Source of the DNA: Acetofilamentum sp.
Lineage (GTDB): Bacteria; Bacteroidota; Bacteroidia; Bacteroidales; DYOH01
Direction of reading: 5' to 3'
DNA: 54,778 bases
Assembly: GCA_020720625.1 (NCBI GenBank)
Contig: DYOH01000004.1
Location: 1-54,778 of the forward strand
The notes under the pieces were generated by a model. It saw only the letters and a list, made by a program, of their open reading frames with translations. It did no database searches and was not told the DNA's origin. Position numbers and translations under genes: made by a program. Positions 54 through 1,331 of the stretch are shown here, in pieces (within the stretch, counting starts at the first letter, position 1; each line of letters opens with the position of its first letter).

Positions 54-260
54 TTAGACTTGCGGATTTAAGGTATAACTAAAATCATCGGCAACAATCT
101 TATCGTACTTATTAGCATAATTTCGAACAGCCCCATCGCCATCTCTTTGAACTTCGGCAAAAACTTCAGCAATAAAATCTTTTAATTCCAACTTCTCCAG
201 CCTTGCCCGCTGCGCCAATTGAGGCCACTGAGATTTATTAATTTGATTATAAACTAGCAT
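54..260 (-). pseudogene. hisD: Histidinol dehydrogenase, N-terminal fragment (broken or cut at window edge)
   Basis: HisD oxidises L-histidinol to L-histidine in two NAD-dependent steps, the last reactions of histidine biosynthesis. Only 68 residues are readable, against a usual length of about 430. The visible part matches the HisD N-terminal helix region (a VFAEVQRDGDGAVRNYANKYDK stretch resembles the family's 'GDEAL..Y...FD'). The frame closes at 54-56, immediately next to a run of eight A on the coding strand; both other frames stay open to position 1, but neither gives convincing HisD sequence. It begins 2 bases after the hisG stop, as expected for the usual hisG-hisD order. Sequencing error at a homopolymer, assembly edge, or a real truncation are all possible, and the sequence alone does not decide. 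Confidence 0.7.
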
Positions 261-262
261 GC

Positions 263-1117
263 TTATATTATTTTTTCGATGTTCGTAACTAAAATACCTT
301 CGGCCCCTAAGGCTTTTATCTGTGAGATTAATGTCCAGAAATCGTCTTCATTGACCACAGAGTGCACCGAACTCCAGCCCTTCTCAGCCAATGGCATCAC
401 CGTTGGACTTTTTAAACCCGGCAAAATTTTGATAATTTCGGGCAAATTTACATCCGGAGCATTAAGTAAAATATACTTCTTGCCACGGGCATTGAGTACT
501 GCTTCTATTCTGAATAACAAATCGTTGAGTAAATAATTAGCTTCCTTGCTCAATTGCTTGTTGGCAATAAGCACGGCCTCGCTTTTAAGCAAAACTTCTA
601 CTTCTTTTAGCCCATTACTCATCAATGTGGATCCGGTACTTACAATATCGCAAATAGCATCGGACAGTCCAATATTAGGGGCTATTTCTACGCTCCCGGA
701 AATTTGCTCAATATAGGCTTCCACCTTAGATTCATCGAGATATTTTCTTAAAATATTAGGATAACTAGTGGCTATTCTCATATTCTGAAGAGATTGTACA
801 CCTTTATAATCGTCTTGTTTTGGAACCGCAATGGATAGGCGACATTTAGAAAATCCGAGCTTTTTAATAATCTCTAGCTGCTTATTCTCTTCCAAAACAG
901 TATTAAGTCCCACAATTCCAATGTCGGCTACACCTTCTTCTACATATTTTGGAATATCATCGTCGCGAAGAAAAAACAGTTCACAGGGAAAATTCTGTGC
1001 AGCAAGCTTTAAAGTGTCTGTCCCATTATCGAATCTAATGCCACATTCGTAGATTAACTGAATGCTTTTTTCGTAAAGTCGTCCTTTTTTTTGAATCGCA
1101 ATTTTAAGTTTATTCAT
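263..1117 (-). CDS. hisG: ATP phosphoribosyltransferase, long form
   Basis: HisG condenses ATP with PRPP to phosphoribosyl-ATP, the first and feedback-inhibited step of histidine synthesis. The 284-residue length fits the long (HisG-L) form, with a catalytic domain (about 1-210) and an ACT-like C-terminal histidine-binding domain (about 212-284, containing SPTVMPLAEKGWSSVHSVV). Catalytic features include ADIGIVGLN near residue 64 and the PRPP-binding loop DIVSTGSTLMSNGL near residue 158. The ATG at 1115-1117 follows an attenuator (terminator at 1168-1199) and is the first structural gene of the operon; hisD follows after 2 bases. The long form does not need the HisZ subunit. Assignment is secure. 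Confidence 0.96.
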   Translation of the reverse strand: MNKLKIAIQKKGRLYEKSIQLIYECGIRFDNGTDTLKLAAQNFPCELFFLRDDDIPKYVEEGVADIGIVGLNTVLEENKQLEIIKKLGFSKCRLSIAVPKQDDYKGVQSLQNMRIATSYPNILRKYLDESKVEAYIEQISGSVEIAPNIGLSDAICDIVSTGSTLMSNGLKEVEVLLKSEAVLIANKQLSKEANYLLNDLLFRIEAVLNARGKKYILLNAPDVNLPEIIKILPGLKSPTVMPLAEKGWSSVHSVVNEDDFWTLISQIKALGAEGILVTNIEKII

Positions 1118-1167: not shown

Positions 1168-1199
1168 AAAAAAAACCCGCCTGATTTACTCAGACGGGT
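1168..1199 (-). terminator. his operon attenuator terminator
   Basis: On the minus strand the sequence ACCCGTCTGA-GTAAA-TCAGGCGGGT forms a 10-bp hairpin (one G-U pair) followed directly by eight T. It sits between the His-rich leader ORF and hisG, so it would stop transcription before the structural genes. Its 5' arm (1190-1199) can alternatively pair with CAGGCG inside the leader ORF (1241-1246), a copy of the same six bases in the terminator's 3' arm. That gives two mutually exclusive structures, as in classical ribosome-mediated attenuation. Confidence 0.85.
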
Positions 1200-1231
1200 G
1201 AATGATTTATTGTTAAGCCACAAACATCAAA

Positions 1232-1294
1232 CTACACGCTCGCCTGGATGACAAGATGAAGATGATGATGCAGATGGAAAAAATTTCTATTCAT
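1232..1294 (-). CDS. hisL: Histidine leader peptide (attenuator)
   Basis: A 20-codon ORF upstream of hisG on the minus strand encodes MNRNFFHLHHHLHLVIQASV. Five of seven residues from 7 to 13 are His (HLHHHLH). Ribosome stalling there when charged tRNA-His is scarce would leave CAGGCG (codons 17-18, positions 1241-1246) free to pair with the 5' arm of the terminator at 1168-1199 and allow hisG transcription; complete translation to the TAG would cover CAGGCG and favour termination. The last His of the HHH run lies 15 bases before CAG, consistent with this geometry. It is too short for usual gene calling. There is no Shine-Dalgarno, and the promoter at 1300-1331 places transcription start at or next to the ATG, so translation may be leaderless. 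The role is inferred from layout and composition. Confidence 0.85.
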   Translation of the reverse strand: MNRNFFHLHHHLHLVIQASV

Positions 1295-1299
1295 GGACA

Positions 1300-1331
1300 C
1301 AAACATATAAAAGCTTTTTTATAAAACAAAA
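1300..1331 (-). promoter_or_regulatory. his operon promoter, Bacteroidota type
   Basis: On the minus strand TTTTG (1327-1331) is followed, after 19 bases, by TATGTTTG (1300-1307). This fits the Bacteroidota housekeeping consensus (-33 TTTG, -7 TAnnTTTG). Predicted initiation is about 5 bases downstream, near 1294-1295, right at the leader peptide ATG. Confidence 0.65.

Follow-up and report, generated by a model that had tools for sequence, protein, structure and literature searches.

Introduction

The enterobacterial his attenuator (hisL, RF00514) combines a short leader peptide containing clustered His codons with alternative hairpins and an intrinsic terminator. The hisL peptide is reported to carry seven His in a row (PMC3896937). 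A leader-peptide attenuator is also catalogued for the Bacteroidota (Bacteroid-trp, RF01692), which resembles the element described here but is built on Trp rather than His. Sinorhizobium meliloti belongs to the Alphaproteobacteria. The RNA of its trpL attenuator was reported to start at the leader AUG (PMC7298713), as is predicted for our element; trpL differs in being a Trp leader and in having a reported rather than a predicted 5′ end.

In Flavobacterium psychrophilum, strong clues for leader-peptide attenuation were described upstream of amino-acid operons, and an element 5′ of hisG was described as conserved in other Flavobacteriaceae (PMC9723704). That element has the phylum and the gene in common with ours, with attenuation proposed there for amino-acid operons. 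Moreover, a comparative attenuator survey cited in PMC4833913 may already predict his attenuators of Bacteroidota. Ribosome-mediated attenuation had been called little studied in this phylum by a first-pass annotation of the DNA analyzed here, which is a fair statement but not an absolute one, given the F. psychrophilum clues (PMC9723704) and Bacteroid-trp in Rfam. In this study, we analyzed the window, a stretch of 54,778 nt from Acetofilamentum sp. (Bacteroidales), which contains a putative his attenuator upstream of hisG. Compared with hisL, the window element has hardly any predicted 5′ UTR and a promoter of Bacteroidota type.

A putative attenuator between a divergent PAS-domain gene and hisG

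The attenuator elements lie on the minus strand, run from 1331 to 1168, and point toward hisG (263..1117, minus strand; PF01634, PF08029, TIGR00070), which encodes ATP phosphoribosyltransferase and would be the first gene controlled. On their other side is a divergent PAS-domain gene (plus strand, PF13596), which extends to 2556 and has its first ATG at 1336 and another in-frame ATG at 1366. Directly after hisG, a 68-codon ORF (54-260, minus strand) was noted that by eye resembles the start of hisD; its stop is followed by an A run and the end of the contig is near, and an assembly or homopolymer error is possible.

The promoter that had been claimed ahead of the leader is present (1300..1331, minus strand). 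It reads TTTTG-N19-TATGTTTG, with TTTTG at 1331-1327, a 19-nt spacer, and the -7 box TATGTTTG at 1307-1300, and is of the Bacteroidota -33/-7 type (TAnnTTTG); a sigma-70 promoter was rejected on the basis of these boxes. When the 700 nt upstream of hisG were searched with the strict pattern TTG-N17..23-TAnnTTTG, the window promoter was the sole match. When the 248-nt stretch 1118-1365 was dinucleotide-shuffled 2000 times, a promoter with a spacer of 17-22 nt also arose in 60 of the shuffles; the window promoter taken alone is not beyond chance, and its position ahead of the leader ORF is what counts.

The leader ORF (MNRNFFHLHHHLHLVIQASV*; 1232..1294, minus strand) has 20 codons and begins with an ATG 5 nt past the -7 box. 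As had been annotated, it contains five His within seven codons (the corresponding run in hisL being uninterrupted). These codons, His 7, 9, 10, 11, and 13 (1256..1276, minus strand), are the candidate sensing codons and would also supply the 5′ side of a protecting hairpin. A second in-frame ATG, upstream of the leader ATG, overlaps the -7 box and therefore would not be transcribed from the window promoter. In 454,778 bp of the organism's own genome (the window and 20 further stretches), only one other ATG ORF of 8-45 amino acids contained at least five His in seven codons. Folding of the RNA spanning 1295-1160 gave -40.9 kcal/mol (z = -4.85), and an equally good energy was reached by none of 200 shuffles. 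As in a classical attenuator, a short ORF rich in codons for the amino acid of the pathway stands directly upstream of the cognate gene, hisG.

The terminator hairpin and its T8 tract, also claimed at first pass, were recovered at 1199-1175 and 1175-1168, respectively. The hairpin, ACCCGTCTGA-GTAAA-TCAGGCGGGT (1175..1199, minus strand; -16.8 kcal/mol), begins 32 nt past the leader stop and is placed as an intrinsic terminator of the classical type would be, between leader and hisG; the T8 tract (1168..1175, minus strand) is evident from the sequence. Inside the leader, at 1246-1241, is the CAGGCG copy of the terminator's 3′ arm on which the proposed antiterminator had been based. It belongs to the candidate antiterminator strand CCAGGCGA (1240..1247, minus strand), which lies near the 3′ end of the leader ORF and whose partner would be the terminator 5′ arm. 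Past the leader stop, TGATGT and GTGG (1218..1229, minus strand) are predicted by folding to form hairpin 1:2 with the His-codon region in the absence of a ribosome.

Predicted switching between terminator and antiterminator

In the mechanism that we propose, RNA polymerase would start at about 1295, and a ribosome would enter at the AUG, at or a few bases from the 5′ end of the RNA, and translate the His-rich leader. With charged His-tRNA in ample supply, the ribosome would reach the stop codon and cover CAGGCG, and the terminator (1199-1175) would form before hisG. With His-tRNA scarce, the ribosome would stall at a His codon, and the free CAGGCG would pair with CGUCUG of the terminator 5′ arm; once this antiterminator had formed, transcription would continue into hisG. 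In the case of no ribosome, the His codons would pair with UGAUGU past the stop, and the terminator would form.

Folding calculations were consistent with each of these states. The downstream edge of the ribosome was assumed to lie 12 nt downstream of the first nucleotide in the A-site codon. With a ribosome at His 7, 9, 10, 11, or 13, the transcript as far as the terminator loop folded into the CAGGCG:CGUCUG antiterminator, at -15.9 to -16.3 kcal/mol. When the ribosome was placed at the stop codon, the antiterminator was lost (-2.3 kcal/mol left) and the terminator formed. Folding without a ribosome gave pairing of the His codons with the UGAUGU that follows the stop, together with the terminator. 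In these computations (folding and pairing counts, with modest covariation, see below), the antiterminator strand is free upon a His stall and covered at the stop. Once the 3′ arm of the terminator is present, equilibrium energies favour this hairpin in every case, and hence the decision of the switch would have to be kinetic and co-transcriptional. Kinetic, co-transcriptional folding also decides known attenuators.

Predicted position of the transcription start

For comparison with other loci, two sets of DNA upstream of hisG were assembled. The named set comprised upstream DNA from 80 loci, taken as the best 80 of the 205 relatives found for the window HisG, a capped selection that is weighted toward near relatives and contains many Pontibacter and Roseivirga. 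The HisG matches listed bear Bacteroidota names apart from one record titled simply 'bacterium', and together with the promoter they place the genome in this phylum. The same-order set comprised 129 other genomes out of 144 with a HisG match (the window's own included); the remaining 14 were excluded because they were partial, contained stops, or scored lowest. Of 210 upstream regions, 3 were shorter than 150 nt and were discarded, which left 207, window included.

In F. psychrophilum, the TAnnTTTG box was reported at -12 to -5 from the transcription start (PMC9723704). This spacing places the predicted start of the window leader near 1295 (minus strand), one base ahead of the ATG, and a near-leaderless transcript with a 5′ UTR of about 1 nt is plausible on this promoter geometry. 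The main alternative is that the attenuator is genuine and transcription starts farther upstream, giving an ordinary 5′ UTR. In its favour, the distance from box to leader ATG (gap) was 16-23 nt in 55 of the 69 same-order loci with a strict box (window included), and most 5′ UTRs of F. psychrophilum and Bacteroides thetaiotaomicron are described as leadered (PMC9723704, PMC7366714), with leaderless mRNAs given as 5.5% in the former (PMC9723704) and 5′ UTRs below 10 nt as about 3.7% in the latter (PMC7366714). A promoter-signal survey, which sees only Pribnow-like promoters, listed leaderless genes for 1 genome among 37 from the Bacteroidetes/Chlorobi (PMC3160421). Against an upstream start, there is no second strict promoter within the 700 nt, the -7 and -33 elements fit well, and a gap of 5 nt recurs at the Trp leader nearest the promoter in this genome and at the same-order locus L132. 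We consider an upstream start unlikely, though it retains appreciable weight.

The near-leaderless start predicted for the window is seldom shared by same-order loci. The first-pass annotation had called the leader ORF nearly leaderless; promoter geometry agrees with this at the window locus, but at the other 23 loci of its terminator class (class A, see below) the nearest strict box is 12-25 nt from the leader ATG, so that leaderlessness appears to be no part of the conserved element. Only two of the 69 same-order strict-box loci had a gap of 5, the window and L132, with the one gap nearest to 20 counted at loci with several, a rule that favours the leadered reading (L151 also has a gap of 1, L182 also one of 11). 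Short gaps were also rare in the organism's own genome: around the ATGs of 209 genes (454 kb), 46 -7 boxes lay at 13-31 nt and 4 at 0-12 nt, and near-leaderless starts as a genome-wide habit were rejected on such counts. Strict promoter-ATG pairs, of which 4 of 32 had a gap of 12 nt or less, are too few per single genome. Since a gap of 5 is uncommon in this genome and likewise in His leaders of the same order, the short start looks lineage-specific. The first His codon is codon 7 in the window and codon 6, 7, or 8 in L085, L193, and L016; the window leader ATG is probably the old one, and this similar position suggests that the promoter has moved closer.

Bacteroidota mRNAs are described as lacking Shine-Dalgarno sequences (PMC6847099). 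A near-leaderless attenuator would skip the recruitment of a ribosome to a 5′ UTR altogether, and loading of the first ribosome on the emerging 5′ end becomes testable.

Putative His leaders and their terminators upstream of hisG in other Bacteroidota

A His ORF was defined as an ATG ORF with at least three His in eight codons, located in the last 350 nt before hisG. Such an ORF was found in 174 of the 207 regions, compared with 6 on the opposite strand and 3-9 in ten dinucleotide-shuffled sets; the other 33 regions had no such leader. When at least five His were demanded, 110 regions matched, and neither the opposite strand nor the shuffled sets gave any. By set, His ORFs preceded hisG in 105 of 127 same-order regions and in 68 of 79 named Bacteroidota regions (from the best 80 of 205), and the conservation of the His codons, on which the first-pass annotation had made its proposal depend, is borne out.

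Past the leader stop, a terminator-like hairpin was present at 135 of the 174 loci, with an energy of -10 kcal/mol or better at 118. In 96 of these 118 loci, the best antiterminator site lay between -22 and +18 relative to the leader stop, compared with a mean of 57.7 (range 46-68) after shuffling. These counts bear on the possibility that a terminator independent of His codons is accompanied by a chance, untranslated small ORF. Low-complexity CAT runs do arise easily, and translation of the leader is a prediction, but a frame with a His cluster in 174 of 207 regions, scarce on the opposite strand and in shuffles, and an antiterminator site concentrated at the leader stop make a chance ORF very unlikely.

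By their 5′ arms, the 118 terminators were classed as CCGYCTG-like (class A, 24 loci, including the window), GGCTTRCC-like (class B, 44), GGYYTGCA-like (class C, 24), and other (26). A CAGGCGA-like motif stood at the leader end in 14 of 24 class A loci, in none of the 44 of class B or the 24 of class C, and in 1 of 26 others, while a GGTNRGC-like motif stood there in 33 of 44 class B loci, 1 of 24 of class A, 1 of 24 of class C, and 6 of 26 others. Accordingly, class A arms paired best with class A leader ends (mean -7.3 kcal/mol, versus -6.6 with class B and -5.5 with class C), and class B arms with class B leader ends (-10.3, versus -7.5 with class A and -6.7 with class C). The class-matched motifs and pairing indicate that terminator and antiterminator strand change in step from class A to class B. 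Class C (24 of 118) gave no antiterminator signal, its arm preferences being flat (-6.9, -7.0, and -6.7) and its best site lying near the stop in 12 of 24 loci.

A point against the attenuator reading is that each leader, compared with others at its own terminator arm, paired better than 95% of 60 shuffles at 51 of 118 loci and better than 95% of 60 foreign leaders at only 18 of 118; in the case of the window, leaders that did equally well or better made up 0.03 of the shuffles and 0.17 of the foreign leaders. Leader swaps separate own from foreign antiterminators poorly because the motifs are common to loci.

Covariation was assessed in a hand-picked alignment of 20 rows (A2), which holds 16 of the 24 class A loci and 4 others sharing the motif and leaves out 8 class A loci of Flavobacteriales. 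In the terminator, 94.4% of cells were paired, both sides had changed in 6 of 10 pairs, and the covariation score was matched by 0 of 500 shuffles. In the antiterminator, 89.4% were paired and both sides had changed in 3 of 8 pairs; among 500 shuffles, the paired share was matched by 1 and the covariation score by 3, and the count of pairs changed on both sides was matched by 39 and the number of pair types by 138. Covariation support for the antiterminator thus appears real but modest. Both alternative pairings, whose conservation the first-pass annotation had likewise made decisive, are kept with compensatory changes across these loci, the terminator strongly and the antiterminator modestly. 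RNAalifold on the aligned loci recovered the terminator alone, as is expected where a second structure competes; hairpin 1:2 was absent from it as a consensus helix and is predicted from the window RNA alone.

Taken together, the parts, their conservation and covariation, and folding that agrees with each state suggest that the window element is very probably a ribosome-mediated transcription attenuator of the his operon of the classical type, in which start, translation, stalling, and regulation would follow the predicted course. The textbook his attenuator, best known from Enterobacteria, is suggested before hisG in most Bacteroidota regions sampled, and this wider pattern deserves more attention than the single window locus.

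A possible second kind of His leader in the Cytophagales

Among the named loci with a strict box (n = 47, from the best 80 of 205), the gap was 12 nt or less in 35, and 31 of these 35 are by record title Roseivirga, Pontibacter, Rufibacter, or Adhaeribacter. A strong terminator was found at 1 of the 35 short-gap named loci. Where the gap was longer, one was present at 10 of 12 named loci and at 59 of 64 same-order loci, and the short-gap same-order loci had one in 4 of 4. Another feature was common in the short-gap named loci, namely a leader stop lying in the loop of a hairpin with at least six Watson-Crick pairs. Of the 35, 26 had this stop-in-loop hairpin, as did 13 of the 21 named loci lacking a strict box; it was seen in none of the 12 leadered named loci or the 105 same-order loci, and is absent in the window. 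Shuffling the bases past the stop gave it in 0.8-5% by group. Its stem is ATTCCTC/GAGGAAT in Hymenobacteraceae and CATCTCTC/GAGAGATG in Roseivirga, with the pairing kept. When 49 loci (the 68 named with a His ORF minus 19 left out by name) were compared, 10 lacked a six-pair stop hairpin. Many loci in the short-gap and stop-hairpin counts are related, and these are not independent events. Examples of this type are L017, L018, L024, L040, L063, L077, and L079. Clustering at short gaps was not seen for ordinary genes in one Roseivirga genome (103 genes; 5 boxes at 13-31 nt and 1 at 0-12 nt before the ATG) or one Pontibacter genome (129 genes; 9 and 2, respectively), with few boxes in either. In L034, L047, L008, and L027 (Rufibacter, Adhaeribacter), an extra TATCTTTG box was noticed by eye between leader and hisG, possibly a second promoter.

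A tentative reading, which we rate as somewhat short of evenly balanced, is that Bacteroidota have two kinds of His leader, a leadered one with an intrinsic terminator and the helices of the window, and a near-leaderless one in the Cytophagales, with the window as a mixed form. On the same reading, and with the same reservation that it may well prove wrong, the Cytophagales kind would be marked by His codons just before the stop, a conserved stop hairpin, and the lack of a strong terminator. Intrinsic termination would play no part in its action; one possibility is that a ribosome held up at the terminal His codons shields the RNA beside the stop, and that its release at the stop exposes that RNA to Rho or a nuclease. 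Such a Rho- or nuclease-based output is something that we only infer. The window, as a mixed form, would combine a near-leaderless start with a classical terminator, and its first ribosome would load as the RNA emerges. With a stop in a hairpin loop and no strong terminator, the Cytophagales type points to another form of amino-acid control.

The relationship of the window to these loci was examined in a quick HisG tree of 110 rows. The window fell in a fork of 30 rows (support 85, not starred) that comprises every one of the 18 class A loci in the tree and 11 further rows, including Fulvivirga, and that stands apart from the Roseivirga and Hymenobacteraceae rows; the window was in no starred set. 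Horizontal gain of hisG from a Roseivirga or Hymenobacteraceae clade is rejected by this tree, weakly, the window row being a long branch (0.97) in a quick tree without bootstrap. No HisG match was found in the two other genomes of the window's family (78% and 91% complete), so that the hisG comparisons are with loci outside this family. It is highly improbable that the window leader works in the Cytophagales manner, with its terminator a decayed remnant: the short promoter-ATG gap is common to both, but the window has a strong terminator and no stop-in-loop hairpin, and its HisG groups with the 18 class A loci rather than with the Roseivirga and Hymenobacteraceae rows.

Control by a T-box or another ligand- or tRNA-binding riboswitch in place of a ribosome, although a T-box has been proposed for Corynebacterium his genes (PMC3896937), is scarcely conceivable here, as the window holds no Rfam match to a T-box and only two tRNAs matching at gathering scores, and the best sub-threshold match in 1100-1400 is to His_leader (RF00514) itself, at 28.1 bits against a gathering score of 49, which leaves the window element outside that family too. 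Ribosome-mediated attenuation remains the preferred reading. When 12 hisG loci were searched against Rfam with a loose threshold, all leader matches were again sub-threshold, the best being Phe_leader at 37.1 of 55 bits (L004) and His_leader at 32.9 of 49 bits (L044).

Putative leaders upstream of other amino-acid genes

The upstream region of trpE in the organism's own genome (L283, -285 to -1), one of nine genomes inspected for leaders of this kind, contains two putative Trp leaders in series. The first, MKFISKNHIWWWLS, lies at a gap of 5 from a TAGGTTTG box and is followed by a terminator; then come MNKNNWWHWSNFFSPK and another terminator. Leader pairs resembling these were found in the same-order locus L284, where a Bacteroid-trp match fell below the cut-off (43 of 49 bits), and in Rufibacter L286. 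A published case of attenuators in tandem is that of Salmonella mgtCBR (PMC3641672).

In 56 trpE regions (30 loci, 20 of 25 other matching genomes, and 6 more), a Trp-rich ORF under a loose rule preceded trpE in 39, compared with 2 on the opposite strand and 3 after shuffling. Two or more such ORFs were found in 12 regions, versus 0 and 0; by eye, only five or six of these seem to be genuine leader pairs. When a strict box lay within 35 nt of the Trp ORF (15 regions), the gap was 4-8 nt in 4 and at least 13 nt in 11; in G002, a relative in the window's family, the Trp leader has a gap of 23 (L345). A scan of the own genome with a Trp-leader pattern was swamped by chance (151 matches versus 54 with the reversed pattern), and the rule used gave no leader ORF before homoserine dehydrogenase genes at 10 loci, four of which had <350 nt upstream.

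Short ORFs of similar kind were also noticed ahead of other genes. Two Phe/Tyr-rich leader ORFs in series precede pheA in L300, L301, and L304. Ahead of ilvD, short ORFs rich in Ile/Leu/Val were seen in L318, L319, L321, and L322; no box was found at L322, and where one was found, the gaps were 22-40 nt.
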